Below are positions 8,550 through 63,779 of a stretch of DNA of 64,000 nt, in pieces. The stretch is from Maribacter sp. 1_MG-2023. Lineage in GTDB: Bacteria > Bacteroidota > Bacteroidia > Flavobacteriales > Flavobacteriaceae. The notes below the pieces were generated by a model. It was not told the origin of the DNA and ran no database searches. It saw only the letters and a list, made by a program, of their open reading frames with translations. The stretch covers positions 558,001-622,000 of the forward strand of contig NZ_JAUOPN010000001.1 in the NCBI RefSeq assembly GCF_030547005.1, read 5' to 3'. Positions within the stretch are counted from its first letter, which is position 1; the number at the start of each line of letters is the position of its first letter. A program made the position numbers and the translations under genes.

Positions 8550-8810
8550 TTAAGAAAGTTTAGCGTTGTTCACTTTTGTTGTGAATTCTAAAGCCTTTAT
8601 TACTCTGTTGTTTTTATTCTTGTATAATCTTGCAACTTCCATTATGTTTTCAGTTTCTATTGTTGGAACAGTAATATAATTACTTTGAATTGTTTGAACC
8701 ATCTCTACTTGTAAAGTTTCGATTTCTAAAGAAACATTCTCGTTGTTAGCTTGCGCTTGTACTAAGAAAGTAGAGAAGAAAAGAGCGGTTAAAAGAATAA
8801 TTGATTTCAT
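8550..8810 (-). CDS. Small secreted protein, copy 1
   Basis: The 86-aa protein has a clear signal peptide (MKSIILLTALFFSTFLVQAQ, cut after AQA). The mature part is about 65 aa, with an acidic first half (ENVSLEIETLQVEMVQTI) and a basic C-terminal half with YKNKNNRVIKALEF. It contains no cysteine. The second copy differs at roughly a dozen positions, mostly in the central ETIQSN/ETIESN stretch and the last 15 residues. I do not recognise a characterised family. Export to the periplasm or outside is the only safe inference. Its upstream element resembles LytTR-type half-sites. Confidence 0.8.
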   Translation of the reverse strand: MKSIILLTALFFSTFLVQAQANNENVSLEIETLQVEMVQTIQSNYITVPTIETENIMEVARLYKNKNNRVIKALEFTTKVNNAKLS

Positions 8811-8846
8811 AATATTTGTTTTACACTGCTAAAGTACAGGGATGAA

Positions 8847-8896
8847 CAAACATATTTTACCGCTCGTCGTTGGGCGTCATTTATCTATAGACGAAT
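8847..8896 (-). promoter_or_regulatory. Promoter and upstream element, copy 1
   Basis: On the minus strand a full -7 match TATGTTTG (8854-8847) lies 37 bp before the ATG, with no good -33 TTTG, which suggests an activator. Upstream sits ATTCGTCTATAG (8896-8885), very close to the direct repeats before the response regulator at 56734 (ATTCACCTATAG). Confidence 0.45.
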
Positions 8897-9170
8897 GGTA
8901 ATTTAGATTCGGTTATTAAATTCAAAGGAGGTAAAATAGGAGGCGGACCGAGAATTTAATAGTGCGCTCAATAAGTGTAAGTTTTGATGTTATCTGCTTT
9001 TAAATTATACCGAAACTAACTATTACAGAAATATATGAAATAAGGTTGAATGGTCATTTTGACTTGAGAATGAATTTTGAACTTGATTTATGAGATTGAA
9101 CTTAATAGTAGGTTTTGGTAAGAAATGGGGTAGGTCTAGATTTGGGGCGAAAAGGATATTTAAAATTGTA

Positions 9171-9431
9171 TTAAGAAAGTTTAGCTCTATTTAATTTTGT
9201 TGAGAATTTTAAAGCCTTGATTACCCTGTTGTTTTTATTCTTGTACAATCTTGCAACTTCTATTGTGTTTTCAGTTTCGATTGTTGGAACAGTAATATCA
9301 TTACTTTCAATTGTTTGAACCATCTCTACTTGTACAGTTTCGATCTCTAAAGAAACATTCTCGTTGTTAGCTTGCGCTTGTACTAAGAAAGTAGAGAAGA
9401 AAAGAGCGGTTAAAAGAATAATTGATTTCAT
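9171..9431 (-). CDS. Small secreted protein, copy 2
   Basis: The 86-aa paralogue of 8550-8810 has an identical 20-residue signal peptide and the same layout. Changes include TLQVE to TVQVE, NYITV to NDITV, ENIMEV to ENTIEV, and a divergent tail (TKVNNAKLS to TKLNRAKLS). Both frames are intact, so both copies look functional, and the substitutions show that the duplication is not brand new. Function is unknown. Each copy carries its own promoter, so they are separate units rather than an operon. Confidence 0.8.
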   Translation of the reverse strand: MKSIILLTALFFSTFLVQAQANNENVSLEIETVQVEMVQTIESNDITVPTIETENTIEVARLYKNKNNRVIKALKFSTKLNRAKLS

Positions 9432-9467: not shown

Positions 9468-9517
9468 CAAACATATTTTACCGCTCATAGTTGGGCAGCA
9501 TTTAACTGTAGACGAAT
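9468..9517 (-). promoter_or_regulatory. Promoter and upstream element, copy 2
   Basis: The minus-strand TATGTTTG (9475-9468) and upstream ATTCGTCTACAG (9517-9506) are in the same arrangement as copy 1. The upstream element is also one arm of the perfect inverted repeat at 9504-9541. Confidence 0.45.
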
Positions 9518-9541
9518 GGTAAAAATCATTCGTCTACAGTT
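9504..9541. repeat. Perfect 15-bp inverted repeat
   Basis: AACTGTAGACGAATG (9504-9518) and CATTCGTCTACAGTT (9527-9541) are exact reverse complements around an 8-bp loop. It lies between the end of the ABC-F gene and copy 2 of the secreted-protein gene. No U-run follows on either strand, so it is a poor terminator; a head-to-head regulator site is also possible. Confidence 0.8.
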
Positions 9542-51702: not shown

Positions 51703-52620
51703 ATGAGTATTTCATGGACAGGCGTTATGCCAGCGGTTACCACAAAATTTACAGATAAAGACGAACTTGATTTAGATATGTTCTCTATCAATATAAGGGT
51801 TCAATTAGATGCGGGAGTAAGCGGAATTATACTTGGCGGAACCTTAGGGGAGGCGAGTACATTGACCGATGAAGAGAAAAAGGTTCTCATGAAAGAAACC
51901 GTAAAGTTGGTTAAAGGGAAGGTGCCGGTCATTATTAATATTGCTGAACAAACAACGAAAGGTGCTATTCATGCAGCTGAAGTTGCCGAAGAATGTGGTG
52001 CAACAGGGTTAATGATGCTACCACCAATGCGTTATAAAGCGAATGATCATGAAACGGTTACGTATTTTAAAGAAACGGCGAATAGTACCGATTTGCCTAT
52101 CATGATTTATAATAACCCTATTGATTACGGAATTTTGGTGACTCTAGATATGTTAGAGGAACTTATGGTTTGCGATAATATACAGGCGGTAAAAGAATCG
52201 ACGAGAGACATATCTAATATTACGCGTATAAAAACAAGATTCGGAGATAGACTAAATGTTTTAACTGGTGTAGATACTTTAGGCTTAGAAAGCACATTAA
52301 TGGGTGCTGATGGATGGGTAGCTGGTTTGGTATGTGCTTTCCCTGCTGAAACTTGTGCTGTTTTCGAATTGGCAAGAGCCGGTAGAATTAAAGAAGCATT
52401 AGAAATATACAGATGGTTTTTACCATTATTGGAGCTTGATATTAGTCCGCAATTAGTACAGAATATTAAAATGGCAGAAGTTGCAACTGGTATTGGTACC
52501 GAGAATGTTCGTGCGCCAAGGTTACCGTTAATTGGTGCTGAACGCGAAAGAGTAGCAGCGGTTATAAAACAAGGTATGGCTACAAGGCCAACATTGCCAG
52601 ATTATAAAGGTATTAACTAA
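51703..52620 (+). CDS. DapA-family lyase, likely pyrroline-4-hydroxy-2-carboxylate deaminase
   Basis: The 305-aa (beta/alpha)8 protein has the DapA-family Schiff-base lysine K164 in AVKEST, the tyrosine Y136 in MIYNNP, and GGTLGEASTLT. Its neighbours define the job: with hydroxyproline epimerase, D-amino-acid oxidase and a semialdehyde dehydrogenase it fits 1-pyrroline-4-hydroxy-2-carboxylate deaminase (to 2-oxoglutarate semialdehyde). True dihydrodipicolinate synthase is an alternative but does not fit the context. Confidence 0.85.
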   Translation: MSISWTGVMPAVTTKFTDKDELDLDMFSINIRVQLDAGVSGIILGGTLGEASTLTDEEKKVLMKETVKLVKGKVPVIINIAEQTTKGAIHAAEVAEECGATGLMMLPPMRYKANDHETVTYFKETANSTDLPIMIYNNPIDYGILVTLDMLEELMVCDNIQAVKESTRDISNITRIKTRFGDRLNVLTGVDTLGLESTLMGADGWVAGLVCAFPAETCAVFELARAGRIKEALEIYRWFLPLLELDISPQLVQNIKMAEVATGIGTENVRAPRLPLIGAERERVAAVIKQGMATRPTLPDYKGIN

Positions 52621-52687
52621 TTGAACCATTATTATATGCCCCACACGTTTACTGGGTATATACAGAAATGTAAAGAAATAATCGAAA

Positions 52688-52715
52688 TTTGTTTCGGCTT
52701 CTTTCTTTACTTTTG
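52688..52715 (+). promoter_or_regulatory. Bacteroidota-type promoter before the semialdehyde dehydrogenase
   Basis: TTTG (52688-52691), a 16-nt spacer and TACTTTTG (52708-52715), 22 bp before the ATG at 52738. The second and later cluster genes may thus have their own transcript. Confidence 0.55.
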
Positions 52716-52737
52716 AGTAACATCAGAAAAATAAAAA

Positions 52738-54315
52738 ATGATAAGCGGTACAAATGCAATCGGGAGTAAATCTTCTAAGCAAGGAAATAAAACTTTTAAG
52801 ACTTTTAATCCTAAAGAAAATAAAGAAACAGAATGGACTTTTTACGAAGCATCTTCAAATGAAATTGATGAAGCTGTAGCCTTAGCTACTGATGCTTTTA
52901 AAGTTTATAAAGATTTTTCAGGAGCTAAAAAGGCTGTATTTCTGGAAACGATTGCTGATGAAATTGAAGCTATTGGTGATGAACTTATTGAGACCTATTG
53001 CAAAGAATCTGGTTTGCCAGAAGGTAGAGCAAGAGGTGAACGTGGTCGTACTATGGGCCAATTACGAGCTTTTGCTAATTTATTGAAAGAGGGTTCTTGG
53101 GTAGAAGCGGTAATTGAAAAAGCCCAGCCTAATAGAGAGCCAATGCCTAAGTCAGATATTCGAAAAATGTTATTTCCGTTAGGTCCTATAGTAGTATTTG
53201 GCGCAAGCAACTTTCCTTTAGCATTTTCAACAGCAGGTGGTGATACGGCAAGTGCACTGGCAGCAGGTTGCCCAGTAATCGTTAAGAGTCACCCAATGCA
53301 TGCAGCGACAGGTGAACTGGTTTCATCGGCAATTATAAAAGCGGTAGAAAAAACAGGAATGCCTAATGGGGTATTTTCAAATTTGAATAGTAGCGGTATA
53401 GAAGTGGGTCAGCAGTTGGTGAAGCATCCAAAAGTAAAAGCTGTTGGGTTTACAGGTAGTATAAATGGTGGTACTGCGCTTTATAAATTAGCTAACGAAA
53501 GAGATGAGCCTATACCTGTATTTGCAGAGATGGGCAGTATTAATCCTGTAGTATTACTTCCTTCTGCCTTAGAGAATGATGGTGATGCTTGGGCAACTAA
53601 ATATGCTGCTTCAATAACTATGGGTGCAGGGCAATTTTGTACCAATCCGGGTTTGGTATTAGGGCTGAAGGGAGCTAAATTGGATAGTTTCATCAACACC
53701 TTATCCGAAGAAATTCTAAAATTGGAGCCTACATGTATGTTGCACCCGAATATATATGCAAAATACAACGAAGGTAAAAAAGAACTATCTGCCCAAAAAG
53801 GAATAACTATTACGGCAGATTATAAAAAAGCTACAAATCCGAATACAGCACAACCTTCTATTTTAAAAGTTAGCGGTGCCGATTTCTTGGCGAACACAAA
53901 ATTGCACAAAGAGGTTTTTGGTCCTTTTTCTGTAGTAGTTGAATGTGAAAATACTACTGAATTAGAAGCTATTTTAAATTATTTAGAAGGTCAGTTGACA
54001 GGTACTATTTTGGGTTCTGAAGAAGACTTGGCTTCAAATACGGCTATAGTAGATGCATTGAAAGGTAGAGTAGGGCGTATATTGTTCAATGGCGTACCAA
54101 CGGGTGTAGAAGTAAATTCTTCTATGGTTCATGGTGGTCCGTTTCCTGCCTCTACAGATGCTCGTTTTACTTCTGTTGGTACCTCGGCTATAAAAAGATG
54201 GGTACGTCCCGTTTCTTTTCAAGATTGGCCTAATAAATTGTTGCCAGCGGCATTGCAAAACGATAATCCGCTGAAAATTACAAGACTTGTTGAAGGCGAA
54301 TACACTAAAAACTGA
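52738..54315 (+). CDS. 2-oxoglutarate semialdehyde (2,5-dioxovalerate) dehydrogenase
   Basis: The 525-aa aldehyde dehydrogenase shows N158 (GASNFPLAFS), E264 (FAEMGSINP) and catalytic C301 (GAGQFCTNPG), as in the NADP-preferring KGSADH group, which is longer than most ALDHs. In hydroxyproline breakdown it would oxidise 2-oxoglutarate semialdehyde to 2-oxoglutarate, feeding the TCA cycle. It is followed 21 bp later by the epimerase gene. Confidence 0.9.
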   Translation: MISGTNAIGSKSSKQGNKTFKTFNPKENKETEWTFYEASSNEIDEAVALATDAFKVYKDFSGAKKAVFLETIADEIEAIGDELIETYCKESGLPEGRARGERGRTMGQLRAFANLLKEGSWVEAVIEKAQPNREPMPKSDIRKMLFPLGPIVVFGASNFPLAFSTAGGDTASALAAGCPVIVKSHPMHAATGELVSSAIIKAVEKTGMPNGVFSNLNSSGIEVGQQLVKHPKVKAVGFTGSINGGTALYKLANERDEPIPVFAEMGSINPVVLLPSALENDGDAWATKYAASITMGAGQFCTNPGLVLGLKGAKLDSFINTLSEEILKLEPTCMLHPNIYAKYNEGKKELSAQKGITITADYKKATNPNTAQPSILKVSGADFLANTKLHKEVFGPFSVVVECENTTELEAILNYLEGQLTGTILGSEEDLASNTAIVDALKGRVGRILFNGVPTGVEVNSSMVHGGPFPASTDARFTSVGTSAIKRWVRPVSFQDWPNKLLPAALQNDNPLKITRLVEGEYTKN

Positions 54316-54336
54316 AACAAATAACAAACTATTAAT

Positions 54337-55344
54337 ATGGCCAGCAGCACATTTGTTTGTATCGATGCGCATACTTGTGGTAATCCTGTGAGGGTAGTAA
54401 AACAAGGTGGTCCTGATTTGGTCGGCGCAACCATGAGTGAAAAACGCCTGCATTTTTTAAAGGAATATGACTGGATCCGTAAAGGACTCATGTTCGAGCC
54501 TCGTGGTCATGATATGATGAGTGGTAGTATTTTTTATGCACCGAGCGACCCTAATAATGATTTTGGAATTTTATTTATTGAAACCAGCGGATGCCTACCT
54601 ATGTGCGGTCATGGTACCATTGGTGCTATTACCATTGGTATTGAAAAAGGTTTGATTATACCTAAAACACTGGGGAAAGTTCGTATGGAAACTCCGGCAG
54701 GTTTAGTACTTATATCGTATAAACAAACGGGCAATAAAGTAGATTGGGTAAAATTGACCAATGTAAAGTCTTATTTGGCTGCGACAGATTTAACCATAGA
54801 ATCATCTTATTTGGGTGAGGTTGTTTTTGATGTATCCTATGGTGGTAATTTTTATGCTATTGTAGATCCCCAAAAGAATTTTAGCGGAATTCAAGATTTC
54901 TCTGCAAGTCAGCTTATTCAGTATAGTCAAGAACTACGAGAGAGAATCAATCTGAAATATCCCAATTTATTTATCCATCCAGAAGATGCTACAATTAGAA
55001 GTGTGAGTCATATGTTATGGACAGGCAACACTATTTCTGATACTGCTACCGCAAGAAATGCCGTGTTTTATGGTGATAAAGCCATTGACCGTTCGCCGTG
55101 TGGTACAGGTACTTCTGCACGAATGGCACAATGGTTTGCAAAAGGTAAGTTAAATGCTGGTGAAGACTTTATTCATGAAAGCTATATAGGATCTCAATTT
55201 GTGGGTAGGGTAGAAGAAGAAACCGTTTTAGTTGACAGACCTGCGATAATACCGAGTATTAAAGGTTGGGCAAAAGTATATGGTCAAAACACCATTACTA
55301 TAGATGACGATGATCCGTATGCATACGGGTTTCAAGTAATTTAA
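54337..55344 (+). CDS. 4-hydroxyproline 2-epimerase
   Basis: The enzyme interconverts trans-4-hydroxy-L-proline and cis-4-hydroxy-D-proline. The 335-aa proline racemase-family protein keeps both catalytic cysteines: C90 in PMCGHGTIGA and C255 in RSPCGTGTSAR. Having both indicates epimerase rather than 3-hydroxyproline dehydratase, which has Thr or Ser at the second site. It lies between the dehydrogenase (21 bp) and the oxidase (16 bp) genes. Confidence 0.92.
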   Translation: MASSTFVCIDAHTCGNPVRVVKQGGPDLVGATMSEKRLHFLKEYDWIRKGLMFEPRGHDMMSGSIFYAPSDPNNDFGILFIETSGCLPMCGHGTIGAITIGIEKGLIIPKTLGKVRMETPAGLVLISYKQTGNKVDWVKLTNVKSYLAATDLTIESSYLGEVVFDVSYGGNFYAIVDPQKNFSGIQDFSASQLIQYSQELRERINLKYPNLFIHPEDATIRSVSHMLWTGNTISDTATARNAVFYGDKAIDRSPCGTGTSARMAQWFAKGKLNAGEDFIHESYIGSQFVGRVEEETVLVDRPAIIPSIKGWAKVYGQNTITIDDDDPYAYGFQVI

Positions 55345-55360
55345 ATTCTATTAATTATAA

Positions 55361-56608
55361 ATGAAGAATGTACTAATAATTGGCGGTGGTATTGTAGGTT
55401 TAAGCACTGCATATTTCTTAAATAAGAAAGATTTTTCCGTTACCGTTATTGATAAAGGTGATATTACCTCTGGTGCATCTTTTGTAAATGCAGGTTATAT
55501 AACACCAAGTCATATAATTCCGTTAGCATCGCCTGGTATGATAGCGAAAGGAATAAAAATGATGTTTAATTCTGCTAGTCCGTTTTATATGAAACCTAGG
55601 TTAGACGCCGATTTTTTAAAATGGTCATGGTATTTTCATAAATCATCAACATCAGCTAAGGTAGAAAAGGCTATTCCTTTAATTAAGGACATTAACCTTA
55701 TTAGTAGAGAACTATTTGCCGATATTAAAAATTCGGGCGATTTAGGAGATTTTCAACTAGAACGAAAAGGTTTATTGATGTTGTATAAGACCGAAGCAAG
55801 TTACTTACATGAAAAACAGGTTGCTGAAAGAGTAGCTTTTGAAGGGCTAGAGGTATCTGATTTAAACAAGGCAGAATTACAGCAATTAGAACCTAATGTG
55901 AATATTGATGCAGAAGGTGCTATACATTATGAATGTGACGGGCATACAACTCCGACAGAAATAATGCCCAAGTTAGTGGCTTATTTAAAGCGGCAAGGTG
56001 TTACTATTAGAACAAATGAAGAAGTTTTAGATATTAAGAGTTCTGGTAACAGTATAAGAGAGGTAGTTACCGATAAGGGTTCTTATAAACCAGAAGAAGT
56101 TGTTTTGGCTGCAGGCTCATGGAGCGGTGAACTGGCGAAAAAATTACAGTTGAAGTTACCACTACAAGGTGGTAAGGGGTATAGAATAAATATAGAACGT
56201 GATACGGGTATTACGATTCCGGCTATATTAATGGAATCTAAAATAGCGGTTACCCCAATGAACGGATTTACAAGATTCGCGGGTACGATGGAGTTTTCTG
56301 GTTTAAATGACATTATAAGAAAAGAAAGAGTAACGGCAATAGCTAATGGTGCTCAAGCCTTTTACCCTAATATAAAAATTAATGACACTGAAATAAAAAA
56401 TGTAAAAACCGGATTGCGACCAGTTTCACCAGATGGGCTGCCTTACATTGGTAAATCGTCTAACATAATTAATTTGACTATTGCCACTGGGCATGCAATG
56501 ATGGGTTGGAGTTTAGGACCTGCCACAGGTAAACTAGTTTCAGAGTTATTGTCTGGTACTAAGACGGCTATGAACATCGCAGCATTTAGCCCTGATCGAA
56601 GATTTTAA
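55361..56608 (+). CDS. FAD-dependent D-amino acid oxidase/dehydrogenase, likely cis-4-hydroxy-D-proline
   Basis: The 415-aa DadA/DAO-type flavoprotein begins with VLIIGGGIVGLSTAYFL, continues IDKGDITSGASFVNAGYITPS and ends with TGLRPVSPDGLPYIG and TGHAMMGWSLGPATGK. In this cluster it would oxidise cis-4-hydroxy-D-proline to 1-pyrroline-4-hydroxy-2-carboxylate, the substrate for the DapA-family gene. It is the last gene of the cluster; no transporter or prolyl peptidase is beside it. Confidence 0.9.
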   Translation: MKNVLIIGGGIVGLSTAYFLNKKDFSVTVIDKGDITSGASFVNAGYITPSHIIPLASPGMIAKGIKMMFNSASPFYMKPRLDADFLKWSWYFHKSSTSAKVEKAIPLIKDINLISRELFADIKNSGDLGDFQLERKGLLMLYKTEASYLHEKQVAERVAFEGLEVSDLNKAELQQLEPNVNIDAEGAIHYECDGHTTPTEIMPKLVAYLKRQGVTIRTNEEVLDIKSSGNSIREVVTDKGSYKPEEVVLAAGSWSGELAKKLQLKLPLQGGKGYRINIERDTGITIPAILMESKIAVTPMNGFTRFAGTMEFSGLNDIIRKERVTAIANGAQAFYPNIKINDTEIKNVKTGLRPVSPDGLPYIGKSSNIINLTIATGHAMMGWSLGPATGKLVSELLSGTKTAMNIAAFSPDRRF

Positions 56609-56621
56609 CGAATGTTGAAAA

Positions 56622-56677
56622 ATACTCGTCGGTAGAGAATTACCATTCACCGACAGTAAACTGTTATTCACCTATAG
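56622..56677. promoter_or_regulatory. Direct repeats at 21-bp pitch, LytTR-like operator candidate
   Basis: ATTCACC occurs at 56645-56651 and again at 56666-56672, exactly 21 bp apart, inside longer matches (TACCATTCACCGACAG and TGTTATTCACCTATAG, 12 of 16 equal). A third, weaker unit (ACTCGTCGGTAG at 56624) lies 21 bp earlier. Two or more direct repeats two helical turns apart is the layout of LytTR targets. It is 57-112 bp before the receiver gene. Confidence 0.5.
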
Positions 56678-56733
56678 CTGTCATTTTAAGAATGATAAAT
56701 CTTTAATATTTGTCGTATCAATAAAAATGAGCA

Positions 56734-57135
56734 ATGGACATATTACTTATAGAAGACGATTTAATAGAAGTTATGAAGTTGAAACGTACAGTTTCTAAAC
56801 TTAACTTAAAGCATTCAATTACAGAAGCAAAAAATGGTGAAGAAGCTTTAACCTATTTAAGGTCTGGCGAAAAATTACCTGATATTATTCTACTAGACTT
56901 GAACATGCCAAGAATGAACGGTATTGAATTTCTAGCTATTTTAAAGGCAGATGAATTACTTCAATACTTACCTACAGTTATTTTAACAACCTCAGAAAAT
57001 AGAGCAGATTTGTTGAAATGTTACCAAGCTGGTATAGCAGGTTATGTAATTAAGCCACTAAAATATGAAGATTACGAGTACAAACTAAACGCTGTTTTAG
57101 AGTACTGGAATGTTAATCAACTAGTGAAAGGCTAA
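56734..57135 (+). CDS. Single-domain response regulator
   Basis: The 133-aa receiver (CheY fold) has phospho-acceptor D55 (ILLDLNMPRMNG), acid pair E7-D8-D9, T of ILTTSEN and K of VIKPL. There is no output domain. This RcpA-like type often works with PAS/phytochrome-type kinases. It ends 78 bp before the H-NOX gene, with a -7 box between, so it may be separately transcribed. It could be the relay step between the kinases and the Hpt protein. Confidence 0.92.
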   Translation: MDILLIEDDLIEVMKLKRTVSKLNLKHSITEAKNGEEALTYLRSGEKLPDIILLDLNMPRMNGIEFLAILKADELLQYLPTVILTTSENRADLLKCYQAGIAGYVIKPLKYEDYEYKLNAVLEYWNVNQLVKG

Positions 57136-57213: not shown

Positions 57214-57756
57214 ATGAAAGGAATCGTATTTACCGAGTTTTTAGAAATGGTCGAATCTGAGTTCGGTTTAGAGACTGTTGATAATATTATTGAAAAATCA
57301 AATTTACCATCAGAGGGTATTTATACCTCTGTAGCTACTTACGAATTTAATGAAATGGTAGCGTTGATCACCCAGCTAAGTAAAGAGGTAGATTTACCGG
57401 CTGGAGATTTAATTTATGCATTCGGACTCTACTTGTTCTCAAGTTTAAAGAATGCACATCCAGAAGTTATTCAAAGTTACAGAAACCCAATAGGGTTGCT
57501 ATATTCTATAGAGGATCATATACATGTTCATGTAAAAAAGCTGTATCCTGAAGCAGAACTGCCTACATTTAAAATACTAGACAAGACCGATAATTCTATT
57601 TCTATGATATATTCTTCATCTAGAGGTTTATATAGATTGGCTCATGGTTTAATTGAAAAAGCATTTGAACACTTTAACGGTAAAGCGGATATTACCTATG
57701 AACTTCTTAAAGAAGATGGTACTGAAGTGAAATTTGATGTAGTACAACATGGATAA
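57214..57756 (+). CDS. H-NOX (HNOB) haem nitric-oxide-sensing protein
   Basis: The 180-aa protein is a stand-alone H-NOX domain of usual length. It has the proximal haem-ligand histidine region (DHIHVHVKKLYP, ligand probably H104) and the haem-propionate motif Y133-x-S135-x-R137 (IYSSSRG). H-NOX binds NO (and in some anaerobes O2) through Fe(II) haem and controls an adjacent kinase or cyclase. The next gene is a histidine kinase, overlapping by 8 bp, which is the typical genetic pairing. It is cytosolic. Being from an aerobe, it is likely NO-selective; no distal-pocket tyrosine was assessed. Confidence 0.93.
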   Translation: MKGIVFTEFLEMVESEFGLETVDNIIEKSNLPSEGIYTSVATYEFNEMVALITQLSKEVDLPAGDLIYAFGLYLFSSLKNAHPEVIQSYRNPIGLLYSIEDHIHVHVKKLYPEAELPTFKILDKTDNSISMIYSSSRGLYRLAHGLIEKAFEHFNGKADITYELLKEDGTEVKFDVVQHG

Positions 57757-60112
57757 CAAAGAAGTTCTTCTCTTAAAAAAAGCGCTCGAACGGCAGAAAA
57801 AGGCTCGTAAACAAGCAGAGAATATCTTAGAAAAAAAATCTAAGGAGCTCTATGATGTCACCAGTCATTTAAGAGAATCTAACAGTAAACTCGAAAATTT
57901 ACTAAGCGAAAAAACATCTGAATTAGATGGTATTTTTATAAATATTATCGATCCTTACGTGGTAATGGATCTACAATTCAATGTTATTAATATGAATAGG
58001 TCTGCCAAAGAATTTTTGCAGTTTGATCATAATGATAAGCTAGTAAACCTTTCACAATTTATACATCCAGATTTTTTAGAATATACCCAAGAATCGATGC
58101 GGTCGATGATCGAGGTAGGTAGCTTAAAAAATTATCGTGCAAAAATTATTCTTGAAGACGGTTCTGAAAAATGGATTCAGATTAACGCAAGTCTGGTGTA
58201 CGATAAAAATCAAAGACCTATTGCTGCTCAGGGTATTATCAGAGATATTACCCAAGAAACCGAAGTAAAAAGACTTGTTGCCGAACAAAAAGCGCAATTA
58301 GATATTATAGTAGAGAATTCTCCTTTAGGTATTGTTTTAGCAGTTGACGGTGTAATTCTGAAGACCAATAATACTTTTGTAGATATGCTTGGTTATCAAG
58401 AAGGCGGACTCAAAAACATTTCTTTTAAATCAATCTCAGAACCAGAAAATGCAGCAGATACACTAAATCAACTTGATGAGATGTGTGCTGGTAAACTTGA
58501 AAAGTTTACTGAAATATGGAAGTTCACCAGAAAAGATGGTTCTACCATAATGGGTAAAACTAGAATTTCAGCGATACATGATGATCATAGAAAAAAAGAT
58601 TATCAGGTGGCTATTGTAGAAGATATTTCGCACCAATTAGAGGCAGATAGAAAACTAGAGGCATCTCAAAATAGATTGACTGCTCTTATTTCTAATTTAC
58701 AGTCTGGTGTTCTTTTAGAAGATGAGGAAGGTAAAATTGCATTGACCAATCAAAAATTCTGTGATTTATTTCATATTAAAGAATCTCCTAAGAAAATAAT
58801 TGGCGTTGATTGTGCAGAATCAGAAGAAGAATATAAAAAGTATTTTAAAAACCCAAAAAGCTTTGTTAGTAGAATAGAAGAAATTTTAGCTAAAAAAGAA
58901 ACTGTTTTGGCAGATGAACTTGAAATGATTGACGGTAGAATTTTAGCAAGAGATTTTATACCTATAGATAATGATGGTGATTACAAGGGGCACTTATGGG
59001 CTTATCAAGATATTACCATCTCTAAGAATTACAGAAAGAACTTAGAAAACCAACGAGAAAAGTATAGTAGCATCATTGCAAATATGAATTTAGGCTTGGT
59101 TGAGGTCGATAATAAAGATGTCATACAAATGGTCAACCAAAGCTTTTGTACAATGAGTGGTTTTGAAAAAGAAGAACTTATTGGTAAAGTAGCCTCTAAC
59201 GTTGTAAAGTTCAAAGATGGAGATATTATTGAAACGAAAAATCAGAATAGATTAAATGGTAAGTCTGAATCTTACGAGGTTGAAGTAATCGATAAAAATA
59301 AGAATATAAAACACTGGCTTATTAGTGGTGCACCTAGGTATAATGATACCGGTGCTATTATAGGTTCTATAGGTATTCATTTAGATATTACAGATCAAAA
59401 GCAATTAGAAATCCAGAAAGAAAAATTACTTAGCGAATTAGAAAATAGTAACCAAGGGTTACAAGAGTATGCCCATATTGTCTCTCATGACCTTAAATCG
59501 CCACTTAGAAGTATAAGTGCTTTGGCAACTTGGCTGAGTGATGATTATAAAGATGTTTTAGATGAAGGTGGTCGACAGAATCTTGAGCTTATGCAAGAGA
59601 AAGTAGCCTCTATGGATAAGTTGATCCATGGTATCCTTGAGTATTCGACAGCTAATAGTTCAGCCTTAGATGATTCTAAAGTAGACCTAAATGAAGTAAT
59701 AAATGATATAGGTGAGACTATCTTTATTCCAGAACATGTAAAATTGGTCATTCCTGAAACGTTGCCAATTATCATGGCAGATAGAATTAAAGTGCATCAA
59801 GTTTTTCAAAATATAATTGGTAATGCGGTTGTACATATTGAAAGAGAAGTAGGGCTTGTTGAAGTTCTCTATAAAGACGATGGCGAATTCTGGCAGTTTA
59901 CCGTTAGCGATAATGGAGTAGGTATACCAGAAGAGTATCATAAAAAGATTTTTGACATTTTTCAATCTATAGGTAATAATGAAAGGTCTACTGGTATAGG
60001 GCTTTCAATAGTTAAGAAAATAGTTGATCGCTACCAAGGTAGCGTTTGGGTAGATAGTGTTGTTGGGGAAGGAACTCAATTTCATTTTACAATAAAGAAA
60101 AACCATAACTAA
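57749..60112 (+). CDS. Multi-PAS histidine kinase, H-NOX partner
   Basis: The 787-aa soluble kinase starts with a charged coiled coil (ALERQKKARKQAENIL, residues about 8-60) of the sort seen in H-NOX-linked kinases. Four PAS-type domains follow (about 60-170, 180-300, 308-425 and 438-555), then HisKA with H580 (HIVSHDLKSPLRS), and HATPase_c with DNGVGIP and RSTGIGLSIVKKI. It has no membrane helix, receiver or Hpt, so it needs a separate receiver. Its start lies inside the H-NOX gene, implying coupled translation. Eleven base pairs separate it from the FIST gene. Confidence 0.93.
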   Translation: MDNKEVLLLKKALERQKKARKQAENILEKKSKELYDVTSHLRESNSKLENLLSEKTSELDGIFINIIDPYVVMDLQFNVINMNRSAKEFLQFDHNDKLVNLSQFIHPDFLEYTQESMRSMIEVGSLKNYRAKIILEDGSEKWIQINASLVYDKNQRPIAAQGIIRDITQETEVKRLVAEQKAQLDIIVENSPLGIVLAVDGVILKTNNTFVDMLGYQEGGLKNISFKSISEPENAADTLNQLDEMCAGKLEKFTEIWKFTRKDGSTIMGKTRISAIHDDHRKKDYQVAIVEDISHQLEADRKLEASQNRLTALISNLQSGVLLEDEEGKIALTNQKFCDLFHIKESPKKIIGVDCAESEEEYKKYFKNPKSFVSRIEEILAKKETVLADELEMIDGRILARDFIPIDNDGDYKGHLWAYQDITISKNYRKNLENQREKYSSIIANMNLGLVEVDNKDVIQMVNQSFCTMSGFEKEELIGKVASNVVKFKDGDIIETKNQNRLNGKSESYEVEVIDKNKNIKHWLISGAPRYNDTGAIIGSIGIHLDITDQKQLEIQKEKLLSELENSNQGLQEYAHIVSHDLKSPLRSISALATWLSDDYKDVLDEGGRQNLELMQEKVASMDKLIHGILEYSTANSSALDDSKVDLNEVINDIGETIFIPEHVKLVIPETLPIIMADRIKVHQVFQNIIGNAVVHIEREVGLVEVLYKDDGEFWQFTVSDNGVGIPEEYHKKIFDIFQSIGNNERSTGIGLSIVKKIVDRYQGSVWVDSVVGEGTQFHFTIKKNHN

Positions 60113-60123
60113 AGATTCATTAA

Positions 60124-61254
60124 ATGAAAATAGTTCAAGGAATAAAAAAATCAAATGAATCTTTTGTACTTAAAGATTCTACGCTACTTAAAGAACCGTT
60201 AGTATTGGTTTTTGGTAATCGATATATGTTAGAAAGTGAACATATATATGATGAGGTTAAACAGTTGTTTCCGAACGGGCATATCGTTTTTGGCACCACT
60301 TCGGGTGAAATTATAGATGATAATGTTTTGGACGGATGCATTGTTTTAACTGCTATAGAATTTGAAAAGAGTTCAATTTTAGTGAAAAGAAGCAATGTTG
60401 CAGATTTTCAAAATGATGATAAAAAATTAGGAGAGGTTTTAATAGCTGAGTTTCCGAAAGAAAATTTAAAACATCTATTTGTAATATCTGAAGGTAGTAC
60501 CGTAAACGGCAGTGCACTTATAGAAGGTTTAGAACATTTAGGCAATACACATTTCGGACTCTCTGGTGGATTATGTGGTGATGATGATCGTTTTGAACGA
60601 ACATTGGCATCTTATAATGAAAACCCCAAGGAAGGTGAAATAATAGCTATAGGTTTTTATGGTGATACCTTAGAAATTACTAGTTCTAATTACGGTGGTT
60701 GGACCACTTTTGGGCCAGAACGTATTATTACAAAATCTGAAGGTAATCTACTTTTTGAATTAGATGGTAAACCTGCATTGGATCTTTACAAAACCTATTT
60801 AGGTGAAAAAGCAAATGAATTGCCGAAGTCGGCATTGCTATACCCGTTAAGTGTTAAGGTGACCGAAGATGCTGAACCTTTGGTGAGAACGATTCTTAAT
60901 ATAGATGAGAAAAAAAATACAATGACACTTGCAGGTGACATTCCAGAAGGGGCAAGGGTGCAGTTAATGATGTCTTCTGTAGATGATATAGCAAACGGAG
61001 CTTTTCATGCAGCAGAACTCGCTATGGGTGGCAGAAAGAAATCTCCTGAGTTGGCGTTATTGATTAGTTGTATTGGTAGAAAGTTGGTAATGGATCAACG
61101 TACTGAAGAAGAAATCGAAGAAGTTAAAGCCGTAATTGGTGGTAATACGGTAATAAGCGGATTTTACTCCTATGGCGAAATGGCACCTTTTAGCGGTCAA
61201 GATAGTTGTAAATTGCACAATCAGACCATGACATTAACCTTATTTAGCGAATAA
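60124..61254 (+). CDS. FIST domain protein (NosP family)
   Basis: The 376-aa protein is FIST_N (about 25-215, with FGTTSGEI and FGLSGGLCGDDD) plus FIST_C (about 220-365, ending ISGFYSYGEMAPF and CKLHNQTMTLTLFSE). In Pseudomonas and other bacteria this family, named NosP, binds haem and NO and controls a partner kinase. Whether this one binds haem is not shown by a clear motif; FIST proteins may also sense small ligands such as amino acids. Its stop overlaps the next start by one base (TAATG), and that gene is a kinase, as in the NosP loci I know. Confidence 0.88.
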   Translation: MKIVQGIKKSNESFVLKDSTLLKEPLVLVFGNRYMLESEHIYDEVKQLFPNGHIVFGTTSGEIIDDNVLDGCIVLTAIEFEKSSILVKRSNVADFQNDDKKLGEVLIAEFPKENLKHLFVISEGSTVNGSALIEGLEHLGNTHFGLSGGLCGDDDRFERTLASYNENPKEGEIIAIGFYGDTLEITSSNYGGWTTFGPERIITKSEGNLLFELDGKPALDLYKTYLGEKANELPKSALLYPLSVKVTEDAEPLVRTILNIDEKKNTMTLAGDIPEGARVQLMMSSVDDIANGAFHAAELAMGGRKKSPELALLISCIGRKLVMDQRTEEEIEEVKAVIGGNTVISGFYSYGEMAPFSGQDSCKLHNQTMTLTLFSE

Positions 61255-62318
61255 TGCATTCCCTGTTAAAAAGACAAATCCGAAAATATTTACCAGAAGA
61301 TCTAAAGGCGAACCCAGAAATGGAAAGTTTTTTAGAAGCAGTAGAAAAATCTTATGAGAATTTTGATGATAAATTTTCTATGCTTCATAGAGCTTCAACG
61401 ATAAGTTCAGATGAACTATTTGAAGCCAATAAGAGTTTACAGAAAGAAGCAAAACAGCAAAAAAAGATTCTAGTATCCCTAGAAAATACCATCCGTAGTC
61501 TTACAGAGAATTTAAATGAAGAACAACTTTTTGGTGAGAATGTCAAAGATGACTTCAATGCAGAAGATTTAGCCGCATACATAAGTAATTTGGCAGCGAA
61601 GGTTTCTGAAATGACTGTTGAAAAAGACAGACTTTTAAAGAGTTTAGAAAGCCAAAATCAATCTTTAAACAATTATGCGCAAATGGTATCGCATGATTTA
61701 AAATCGCCCATCCGAAACATCAATGCGTTGATGAGTTGGATAATGGAAGATGAGAAAGAAAAGTTTTCTGCTGCCAGTAAAGACAATTTCTCAATGGTGT
61801 CGCAGAACTTGACTAAGATGGATAAGCTCATTTCAGGTATTCTTAACCATGCTACCATGGGCGAAACTGAAGAGCATAGGGTTACATTTAGTTTAGAAGA
61901 GAGCCTAAAAGATATTGAACAAACTATTTTTGTTCCTGAAAATATAACTTTTGAGTATGATGAAGAATTGCCAGAATTGTTCTTTGAAAGAGCACGACTA
62001 GAGCAATTGTTTATGAATTTATTTACCAATGCGGTTACGGCAACAGAAAATGTTGAAAAAGGAATTATAAAAGTTGGTTACGAGCCAGATGACGCCTACT
62101 GGAAATTTAGTGTTTCAGATAATGGCAAGGGAATACCAGAGAAACATCAAAAAGGAATTTTTGAAATGTTTAAAAAGCTGGAGACAGCTAACAATGCCAC
62201 TGGCATCGGACTTGCAATTGTTAAGAAAATTGCGGTACTTTATGAAGGCGATGTTCGGTTAGAATCAGAAGAAAACGTTGGTACTACGTTTTATATCACA
62301 TTAAAAAAGAATTCATGA
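61254..62318 (+). CDS. Histidine kinase paired with the FIST protein
   Basis: The 354-aa soluble kinase begins LLKRQIRKYLPEDLK and LEAVEKSYENFDDKFSML, the N-terminal helix pattern that I associate with kinases following FIST genes. A coiled coil leads to HisKA with H147 (QMVSHDLKSPIRN) and HATPase_c with N-box LFMNLFTNAV, DNGKGIP and ATGIGLAIVKKI. It lacks PAS and receiver domains. NahK of Pseudomonas, partner of NosP, is a hybrid kinase, so this is a shorter form. It overlaps FIST by 1 bp and the Hpt gene by 4 bp. Confidence 0.9.
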   Translation: MHSLLKRQIRKYLPEDLKANPEMESFLEAVEKSYENFDDKFSMLHRASTISSDELFEANKSLQKEAKQQKKILVSLENTIRSLTENLNEEQLFGENVKDDFNAEDLAAYISNLAAKVSEMTVEKDRLLKSLESQNQSLNNYAQMVSHDLKSPIRNINALMSWIMEDEKEKFSAASKDNFSMVSQNLTKMDKLISGILNHATMGETEEHRVTFSLEESLKDIEQTIFVPENITFEYDEELPELFFERARLEQLFMNLFTNAVTATENVEKGIIKVGYEPDDAYWKFSVSDNGKGIPEKHQKGIFEMFKKLETANNATGIGLAIVKKIAVLYEGDVRLESEENVGTTFYITLKKNS

Positions 62319-62635
62319 TAGAACAACCTAATCTTAATTACGTAGACGAGCTTGCTGGTGACGATATTTCTTTTAGAAATCAGTTTCTTGATATTATTAA
62401 AAACGAGTTTCCGTTAGAAAAAGAAGAATATTTTGGTCATGTAAAAAATACAAGAGTAAAAGAAACTGCCGAAATTGTTCATAAACTAAAACATAAGTTT
62501 AATATCTTAGGAATGGAAAATTCTTATAAGTTAGCAGTAGCTTATGAAATGGAATTATTGGATGGAAAGCACGATAGTCAATCTAAATTCGTTGAAGTAT
62601 TAGAAACTATTGAAGAATACATTAAAACAATTTAA
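62315..62635 (+). CDS. Histidine phosphotransfer (Hpt) protein
   Basis: The 106-aa helical protein has the Hpt motif H56-K-L-K-x5-LG (VHKLKHKFNILGM). Hpt proteins shuttle phosphate between two receivers and lack kinase activity. It starts in the stop of the kinase gene (ATGA) and ends directly against the LytTR regulator (TAAATG), so the order is kinase-Hpt-regulator. Confidence 0.88.
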   Translation: MIEQPNLNYVDELAGDDISFRNQFLDIIKNEFPLEKEEYFGHVKNTRVKETAEIVHKLKHKFNILGMENSYKLAVAYEMELLDGKHDSQSKFVEVLETIEEYIKTI

Positions 62636-63346
62636 ATGAACTGTATTATAATCGATGATGAAGCCACGGCAAGACTAGTTGTTAGGCAACTTTGTTCAAA
62701 GATACCTGAGCTTGATGTTATTGAAGAATTTGACAACGCCATTTCGGCAATCAAGTTTTTAAATCAACAGAATATTGATGTTATTTTTCTAGATATTCAC
62801 ATGCCTGGTTTTAGTGGTGTCGATTTTATACAAACACTTAAAAATCCACCAAAAGTAGTTATGACTACTTCTGATACAGATTTCGCAATAGCCGCTTATG
62901 AATATGAATGTATCGTTGATTATTTGGTGAAACCGATTACACTAGAACGTTTTGAAAAAAGTATTGAAAAAATTAAAAGTAGTTCTTCTAAAAAGCCACA
63001 AACACACGTAGAAACACAACAAAATTCATCTGAAGGTGAAGATTTGTATATCAATATTGACCGAAGATTGATTAAGTTGAAACTCAATGAAATTTTGGTT
63101 ATCGAAGCCAAAGGCGATTACATTGACGTTAAAACAGAAAAAGAAGATCATAGGGTACATACTACCTTGAAAAAAATAAAAGAAAAATTACCTGAAAAGT
63201 TGTTTCTGCAAATACACAGATCGTACATTATCAACTTTACCAAAATTATTGATATAGAAGATAATAGCGTGCTTATTGCTAAAAATGTGGTGCCTATTAG
63301 CCGCTCTAACCGCCCAGAATTAATGAGACGTTTGAATTTACTTTAA
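62636..63346 (+). CDS. LytTR-type response regulator
   Basis: The 236-aa protein has a receiver domain (D53 in IFLDIHMPGFSG) and a LytTR DNA-binding domain (about 130-236, with IEAKGDYIDVKTE, HTTLKKIKEKL, FLQIHRSYIIN and VPISRSNRPELMRRL). It is the only DNA-binding output of the locus. LytTR proteins bind direct repeats about two turns apart, and such repeats lie upstream of the receiver gene at 56734. It is the last gene of the run; a convergent receiver gene follows 20 bp later. Confidence 0.95.
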   Translation: MNCIIIDDEATARLVVRQLCSKIPELDVIEEFDNAISAIKFLNQQNIDVIFLDIHMPGFSGVDFIQTLKNPPKVVMTTSDTDFAIAAYEYECIVDYLVKPITLERFEKSIEKIKSSSSKKPQTHVETQQNSSEGEDLYINIDRRLIKLKLNEILVIEAKGDYIDVKTEKEDHRVHTTLKKIKEKLPEKLFLQIHRSYIINFTKIIDIEDNSVLIAKNVVPISRSNRPELMRRLNLL

Positions 63347-63365: not shown

Positions 63366-63779
63366 TCACCAATTTTCGTGGTAAATTTTTTTAAATATTT
63401 CTGCTAGCTGAACTTTGTTTACCGGCTTTACTACGTACCCAGTAAGCTCTTCAAAATTAGAAGCTCTTTTAACATCGCTATCGCGCATAGATGAGCTGAC
63501 CATGTAAATATTAATGTTATTAATAATTTTAGGTTTTAGTTTTTTGAATTCGTTTAAAAAGCCCCAGCCATCTAAAAATGGCATATTTATATCTAAAAAT
63601 ATAACCTCGGGTAGTTCTACTTTCTCCTCAGTACATTTTGTAATATATTCAACAGCTTGTTCCCCATCGGTAAATGTTGAAACTACCAATTCTTTTGAAA
63701 TTTGATGAATTGTCTTTTGCATTAAATACAAATACAGTTCATCGTCATCGACTAGCAATATGTTTGGTTTTGTGTTCAT
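63366..63779 (-). CDS. Single-domain response regulator
   Basis: The 137-aa receiver has the acidic pair D11-D12-D13 (ILLVDDDELYLY), D63 (IFLDINMPFLDGWGFL), a Ser-Ser at the T position (MVSSSM) and K of VVKPVNK. No output domain is present. It lies 2 bp after the kinase fragment on the same strand, so they are a kinase/receiver pair, separate from the H-NOX operon and convergent to it. Confidence 0.92.
   Translation of the reverse strand: MNTKPNILLVDDDELYLYLMQKTIHQISKELVVSTFTDGEQAVEYITKCTEEKVELPEVIFLDINMPFLDGWGFLNEFKKLKPKIINNINIYMVSSSMRDSDVKRASNFEELTGYVVKPVNKVQLAEIFKKIYHENW

Follow-up and report, generated by a model that had tools for sequence, protein, structure and literature searches.

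Organization of the operon

The window analyzed here is a stretch of 64,000 nucleotides from Maribacter sp. 1_MG-2023 (contig NZ_JAUOPN010000001.1, positions 558,001 to 622,000), toward the end of which seven genes follow one another on the forward strand in the order receiver, H-NOX, HK1, FIST, HK2, Hpt, and LytTR regulator (Table 1). We propose that these genes form a phosphorelay operon with two inputs, H-NOX for nitric oxide (NO) and a NosP-like FIST protein, and with one predicted output, the LytTR regulator. A sequence-only reading of this DNA had described the six genes from H-NOX to the LytTR gene as one tight operon, and the six genes and their five junctions (−8, +11, −1, −4, and 0 bp) agree exactly with the coordinates of the open reading frames (ORFs). 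The domain names it gave were also correct according to Pfam and, for Hpt, according to the predicted structure and a kept histidine. Its extent of the operon was right for those six genes and missed the first one, a single-domain receiver that lies 78 bp upstream of the H-NOX gene and is part of the conserved unit. The whole genome contains a single H-NOX match and a single FIST match.

Table 1. Genes and predicted regulatory elements in the window, numbered from its first nucleotide.
Feature	Position	Strand	Detail
LytTR-type box, 21-bp-phased direct repeat (CCATTCACCGACAGT / TTATTCACCTATAGC)	56642..56678	+	23.6 bits; first operon gene 55 bp downstream
Single-domain response regulator (receiver), first gene of the operon	56734..57135	+	133 aa; Response_reg 76.2 bits
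H-NOX (heme NO sensor)	57214..57756	+	HNOB 136.5 bits, cut-off 25.5
HK1, histidine kinase	57749..60112	+	Pfam: four PAS stretches, HisKA, HATPase_c
FIST_N + FIST_C protein, NosP-like, outside the NosP equivalog	60124..61254	+	Pfam FIST 141.4 bits, FIST_C 122.7 bits
HK2, short histidine kinase without a recognized sensor domain	61254..62318	+	HATPase_c 78.2 bits; HisKA just 17.9 bits (cut-off 26.9)
Hpt (histidine phosphotransfer protein)	62315..62635	+	AlphaFold model, Foldseek, kept His56
LytTR response regulator, predicted output	62636..63346	+	LytTR 66.7 bits, Response_reg 66.0 bits
Second box copy	9484..9520	-	29.0 bits, exact 18-mer; 51 bp before 86-aa secreted protein gene
86-aa protein, signal-peptide-like start (by eye), predicted target	9171..9431	-	
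Third box copy	8863..8899	-	26.5 bits; one mismatch to the 18-mer
Near-identical 86-aa protein, predicted target	8550..8810	-	No Pfam match

Distribution among Bacteroidota

The sequence-only reading had proposed a search for H-NOX and FIST co-occurrence across Bacteroidota, and our survey of 395 genomes of this phylum found an association beyond chance. H-NOX was present in 27 genomes and FIST in 89; FIST occurred in 18 of the 27 H-NOX genomes vs. 71 of the 368 others (Fisher p = 4e-7, a value that ignores kinship among genomes and serves only as a guide), and in 11 of the 18 genomes having both, the two genes were closely linked, lying within 3.5 kb on one strand. In a midpoint-rooted FastTree phylogeny of 51 Bacteroidota FIST proteins, the 15 operon-type sequences formed one clade with a support of 1.0. 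Named genomes were scanned with 15 operon FIST proteins, and the best 80 of at least 500 confirmed relatives were kept. Of these 80, 52 belonged to a strict operon, in which all seven genes share one strand and follow the order given above, which together with 10 unnamed loci gives at least 62 strict operons. These 62 loci carry 62 different FIST sequences, and two of them (L032 and L034) have a third kinase inserted before Hpt.

Among the matches listed, Maribacter records were the nearest, three with FIST proteins 76, 84, and 87% identical to that of the window and two further ones at 61 and 63%, the locus at 61% being cut by a contig end. Cellulophaga, Flagellimonas, Croceivirga, Winogradskyella, Algibacter, Aquimarina, Tenacibaculum, Leeuwenhoekiella, Christiangramia, and Kordia algicida OT-1 were also among these matches. 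The operon is found mostly in Flavobacteriaceae, a largely marine family that is common on algal surfaces.

To this we added a census of 96 loci carrying an operon-type FIST, any H-NOX, or Hpt, in which genes were counted in any order and on either strand within 12 kb. All seven genes were present in 64 loci, while three had the H-NOX pair and the relay without the FIST pair, and five had the FIST pair, HK1, receiver, and Hpt without H-NOX (a LytTR gene was found in two of the five and not in the other three). FIST-HK2 alone accounted for three loci, H-NOX alone for 11, and partial or cut loci for the remaining 10. Wherever an operon-type FIST was present (77 loci), HK2 accompanied it.

Sensors, kinases, and relay proteins

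Sequence conservation supports the H-NOX protein as a putative heme sensor. The proximal heme histidine, His104, and the YxSxR motif are known as functional residues from work on H-NOX proteins. His104 was kept in all 86 aligned proteins, 11 of which come from loci without the operon, and the motif was kept at Tyr133 in 86, Ser135 in 84, and Arg137 in 80 of the 86, with all three residues present in the window protein. This protein matched structure 6BDE with 204.7 bits, and the H-NOX of crystal structure 6BDD, from Kordia algicida, is encoded in the same operon type (176 of 176 residues compared); in the portion of PMC7356049 available to us, 6BDD is treated as Ka H-NOX, with Ka standing for Kordia algicida. 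Flavobacterium-type loci have a distant H-NOX type in the H-NOX slot, with 20 to 27% identity to that of the window, and the remaining operon is conserved (L032–L035, L052, L056, L147, L150, L152, L155, and L173). A MYG start, which we take to mark a Nostoc/guanylate-cyclase-like type, was present in 14 of the 86 H-NOX proteins, at least two of them outside the operon, and the YxSxR arginine was absent from the H-NOX of L056. This last locus belongs to genome G343, in which receiver and H-NOX are duplicated in L056 and L057, 57 kb apart and each with an Hpt gene on the opposite strand, representing a rearranged, duplicated operon. A search for H-NOX remnants in the five loci without H-NOX returned nothing convincing (best E 0.09).

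The AlphaFold model of the FIST protein (pLDDT 94.3) had human FBXO22 as its nearest solved fold, a resemblance that reflects the FIST fold and says nothing on heme; sequence searches of solved structures returned no match for this protein. None of 15 among 26 plasmid FIST relatives carried a NosP label, and these were not used as evidence.

HK1 and HK2 are sister kinases: within the genome, each kinase core finds the other as its best match. With the HK1 core as query, HK2 was the best match (193.8 bits, 42%), followed by a match at 104.6 bits and 32%; the HK2 core likewise retrieved HK1 (188.7 bits, 42%), with the next match at 93.7 bits and 32% (28 places listed in each search, the query itself counted). 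The catalytic histidine was kept in 85 of 85 aligned HK1 proteins, some of which are kinases not belonging to the operon, and in 77 of 77 HK2 proteins. Among the strict operons, HK2 keeps a uniform length (340–359 aa in all 62), whereas HK1 ranges between 403 and 994 aa, so that its PAS domains are probably extra inputs.

Pfam found no receiver domain in either kinase, so Hpt needs a separate receiver as its phosphate donor; the receiver gene fills this place and would therefore complete a phosphorelay between the kinases and Hpt. The phospho-acceptor aspartate of the receiver was kept in 77 of 77 aligned proteins, His56 of Hpt in 77 of 77, and the aspartate of the LytTR regulator, which has both a receiver and a LytTR domain, in 74 of 74. 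In a second count, made with simple motif patterns, the receiver, HK1, and HK2 of all 62 strict operons fit, compared with 58 of 62 for Hpt and likewise for the LytTR regulator, two proteins whose patterns require particular neighbors of the key residue. Taken together, the conserved residues make up a His-Asp-His-Asp set, the predicted parts of a multistep phosphorelay. Hpt itself had no Pfam match, and its assignment comes from an AlphaFold model (pLDDT 94.7) that appears as an Hpt-domain helical bundle with a phospho-accepting histidine. All of its first ten Foldseek matches were Hpt domains, with that of a Shewanella hybrid kinase and that of E. coli BarA at the top, although the E-values were weak (best 0.034, none at or below 0.001).

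Across the 96 loci, receiver and Hpt were both present in 75 and both missing in 17; the receiver occurred alone in two (G088 and G312) and Hpt alone in two, in which contig ends cut the locus. Genome G249 has an H-NOX-kinase-LytTR unit lacking both receiver and Hpt, and in L049 the Hpt-LytTR pair is immediately followed by another, which has a weak box (13.4 bits) upstream. The sequence-only reading had both sensors feeding one LytTR output. This convergence of two sensor/kinase pairs on one Hpt-LytTR output is indirectly supported by the sister kinases, by the receiver that would complete the relay, and by the variable presence of the input pairs next to a receiver and Hpt that are retained, as in the three loci with the H-NOX pair only and the five without H-NOX; the part of the claim that makes FIST an NO sensor is not established.

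Predicted regulatory site and targets

The regulatory site was derived from a gene often found downstream of the operon, represented by a cluster of 34 flanking ORFs; Pfam, run on four of them, identified DUF4114 in all four and a type IX sorting tail in three. We found no paper linking DUF4114 with the type IX secretion system. Upstream sequences were extracted for 31 of these 34 genes. The matrix was built from the 30 that agree in the element CCATTCGTCTACACTTAATTT-CATC-A-CGAA at no fewer than 20 of 36 positions, with no upstream region of a receiver gene in the training set. Box scores above 12 were found upstream of 69 of 77 receiver genes vs. 47 of 1122 other genes, the latter including the training genes. 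Column-permuted matrices reached a mean of 0.02 of 77 receiver genes, and the reversed-sequence control gave seven matches above 12 (best 21.1) in 2.6 million base positions. Within the loci scanned, 124 of the 156 matches above 15 lay within 130 bp upstream of a gene on the same strand. LytTR sites are 21-bp-phased repeats, and the repeat with this phasing that precedes the Maribacter operon is a candidate LytTR site. The Bacteroidota −7 element, TANNTTTG, follows the box mostly at a distance of 25–26 bp and sometimes at 46–47 bp. Among receiver-gene promoters, 14 of 63 have it, where shuffled controls average 2.6; among the other targets, the count is 30 of 61, with a shuffle mean of 2.2.

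The window genome has six sites matching the 18-mer with at most one mismatch, each 51 to 86 bp upstream of a start codon. These sites precede the operon, the two 86-aa genes, a Polysacc_synt_3 flippase and a group 1 glycosyltransferase located just past the window, and an 865-aa DUF6923 protein that carries a type IX sorting tail. Since the 86-aa pair and the polysaccharide genes are neighbors or duplicates, their sites are not independent. Another thirteen sites have two mismatches: one precedes a fusion of a receiver and glycosyltransferase 2, one stands on the opposite strand beside an 86-aa gene box, one has an ORF 201 bp off, and ten have no ORF of 60 aa within 250 bp. The two-mismatch box next to the tandem 86-aa genes (8550–9431, reverse strand), both of whose products have a signal-peptide-like start, faces the opposite way. 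Just past the window, L231 (G000:C1:620001-640000) holds a polysaccharide cluster in which a receiver-glycosyltransferase 2 fusion occurs twice and flippase-like/glycosyltransferase pairs are duplicated.

The box is also found in other genera, upstream of related genes of the glycosyltransferase or flippase-like kind (two clusters, of 6 and 3 genes, those of the window genome included); among three further cluster members, Pfam identified a glycosyltransferase in L132 and gave no match in L187 and L048. The exact 18-mer was present in seven of 16 operon genomes (13 sites) vs. none of 24 family members lacking both H-NOX and operon-type FIST, a comparison that leaves aside two genomes with a split operon. 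With at most one mismatch, operon genomes had 33 sites vs. 7 for the reversed control, and the relatives without the sensors had 17 vs. 16.

The window genome had no match to GGDEF, for which 8 of 14 controls were positive, or to EAL, for which 6 of 14 were positive, while HD-GYP was not searched for. Because neither a GGDEF nor an EAL domain was found, the usual cyclic di-GMP (c-di-GMP) output of NO sensing appears to be missing from this genome.

Proposed mechanism and alternative explanations

In the mechanism that we propose, H-NOX would control HK1 in response to NO, and the FIST protein, with NO, heme, or another compound as its ligand, would control HK2. Both sister kinases would phosphorylate the single-domain receiver, from which phosphate would pass to Hpt and then to the LytTR regulator along a His-Asp-His-Asp path; we infer the specificity of these partners as well as the direction of the NO effect. 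The LytTR regulator would bind the 21-bp-phased direct repeat just upstream of TANNTTTG and activate its own operon, exopolysaccharide genes (flippase and glycosyltransferases), and secreted proteins, the latter represented here by the tandem 86-aa peptides and the type IX-secreted protein, and in relatives by DUF4114 proteins. NO could in this way set matrix and surface production by transcription, without c-di-GMP enzymes found in the genome. We assign a probability of about 0.6 to the reading of the locus as a seven-gene, two-input phosphorelay operon whose LytTR output acts on its own operon and on exopolysaccharide and secreted-protein genes.

Several observations count against this reading. 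Several of the 96 census loci have operon-type parts with no LytTR or Hpt gene nearby; at up to two mismatches, the 18-mer barely exceeds its reversed control in the window genome (19 vs. 14 matches); and 3 of the 16 operon genomes lack any site at up to one mismatch. Five of the 77 receiver genes score 10 or less for the box, of which L175 and L178 seem to have a strong box inside an over-long ORF start, while L137, L141, and L160 remain without such an explanation. DUF4114 genes trained the box, yet DUF4114 had no match in the window genome (nor in the control genomes) and was rejected as a target there, so that targets would differ between genera. On the side of the FIST protein, the score against the NCBIfam NosP equivalog NF041558 was 54.3 bits, with a cut-off of 450, and an alignment with other FIST proteins gave no histidine both specific to the operon type and invariant within it. 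His365 and Cys316 are conserved family-wide, His117 is kept in just 57 of 77, and His53 is similarly variable, and the idea of an operon-specific heme-ligand histidine was rejected. The FIST protein may consequently not bind NO, and of the two NO sensors claimed by the sequence-only reading, H-NOX is supported as a putative heme sensor by His104 and 6BDD, while the naming of FIST as a NosP is not established. The same two-input relay with NO sensed by H-NOX alone, and with FIST sensing heme itself, redox state, or a metabolite, has in our view somewhat less than even chances. It would suit the eight loci in which one input is missing, as expected of non-redundant signals, and the available text of PMC8846402 states that the FIST domain of V. 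cholerae CdpA may detect heme. Against it, the position and partner of the FIST protein, which has both FIST_N and FIST_C, resemble those of NosP, as it adjoins a kinase without a recognized sensor in the layout given for NosP-NosK in the accessible part of PMC12570481, and its co-location with H-NOX suggests a common theme. A bolder reading is a two-receptor NO relay in which H-NOX and a FIST heme sensor with a different affinity or redox range act via the sister kinases on one receiver-Hpt-LytTR chain, making a c-di-GMP-independent path from NO to biofilm in many Flavobacteriaceae genera via transcription of genes for exopolysaccharide and type IX-secreted surface proteins; we consider it less likely than not.

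Two other explanations touch the relay and its output. The seven genes might encode two separate, co-transcribed two-component systems, H-NOX/HK1 acting on the receiver and FIST/HK2 acting through Hpt on the LytTR regulator. This would fit the gene order, with receiver-H-NOX-HK1 preceding FIST-HK2-Hpt-LytTR, and the genomes G088 and G312, in which receiver-H-NOX-kinase lies apart from FIST-HK2 with no Hpt or LytTR gene at either place. Nevertheless, we regard it as unlikely given that operons with H-NOX only retain Hpt and LytTR, that those without H-NOX retain the receiver, that HK1 and HK2 are each other's best match, and that Hpt needs a receiver donor that neither kinase contains. Alternatively, the operon could be real and the box belong to another LytTR protein, so that the polysaccharide and secreted-protein targets would not be its output. 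The genome encodes 16 LytTR proteins, related LytTR proteins can have similar sites, and the box is assigned to the LytTR protein of the operon only by location and distribution. That distribution, with the box before nearly all receiver genes (69 of 77) and exact sites in none of the 24 relatives without the operon's sensors, and the fact that five of the six sites with at most one mismatch, the operon's own included, span 61 kb on one contig, make this explanation improbable, and we infer activation by the operon's LytTR protein in the two-input relay.

Neighboring genes

Adjoining the operon end on the opposite strand, a receiver gene (63366–63779, reverse strand) is followed beyond this position by a 595-aa kinase with a Cache-like sensor, and this kinase/receiver pair is kept in the Maribacter relatives L132–L134. 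In many genera a TPR protein of ~687 aa is encoded near the operon on the opposite strand (cluster of 31 flanking ORFs, two of them analyzed with Pfam; L135, L136, L146, L152, L231, and others). A STAS-domain protein of ~100 aa was also found near the operon in L144, L152, L156, L161, and L173 (cluster of 20 flanking ORFs); four genes of 92–104 aa lie downstream of a box, one of which (L173) was confirmed as STAS. Upstream of the operon, positions 51703–56608 (forward strand) hold hydroxyproline-breakdown-like genes, named by eye as dihydrodipicolinate-synthase-like, aldehyde dehydrogenase, epimerase-like, and FAD oxidase.

Comparison with known systems

According to the portions available of PMC12570481, PMC8738867, PMC8846402, and PMC6769237, biofilm control by NO through H-NOX or NosP works mostly via c-di-GMP or the quorum circuits of Vibrio. 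Vibrio harveyi H-NOX/HqsK and V. cholerae NosP/VpsS, which signal to LuxU/LuxO (PMC6769237, in part), resemble the Maribacter operon in that NO sensors act on cytosolic sensorless kinases with one shared Hpt and regulator. In contrast to Maribacter, where both inputs, a separate receiver, Hpt, and the LytTR regulator are encoded in one operon, these inputs are described in different species, the kinases are hybrids, and LuxU also serves membrane quorum receptors. The NosP-NosK-NosR system of Burkholderia, as far as the accessible text of PMC12570481 describes it, similarly has a FIST protein beside a kinase with ~130 residues before DHp and no recognized sensor domain; however, its output is a degenerate HD-GYP protein, and the Maribacter FIST lies outside the NosP equivalog. 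Shewanella oneidensis HnoX-HnoK (PMC8846402, in part) shares a stand-alone H-NOX that controls a kinase and response regulators, but its output is c-di-GMP hydrolysis, for which the Maribacter genome had no GGDEF or EAL match.

A precedent for the co-location of H-NOX and FIST is given by the H-NOX "group 1" neighborhoods of PMC8738867; by the available part of that paper, at least 20% of the "group 1" genomes have a FIST gene no more than five genes away from H-NOX. This is a neighborhood statistic, and the same part of the paper mentions neither a relay nor a LytTR output, and neither a box nor an operon from Bacteroidota. The sequence-only reading had considered the joining of both receptor types in one operon as not known to be described; a literature search by title and abstract found no paper describing this operon in Bacteroidota, whereas H-NOX/FIST proximity as such had already appeared with "group 1". 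To that reading our analysis adds a receiver gene at the head of the operon, evidence that the operon is conserved, and a predicted regulon that comprises polysaccharide and secreted-protein genes in a genome without detected c-di-GMP enzymes. The operon, the box, and the predicted targets represent a concrete, testable alternative route for NO, with one receptor, that of Kordia algicida, already crystallized, and the natural series of loci with both inputs, with H-NOX only, and without H-NOX is suited to asking how two sensors combine.

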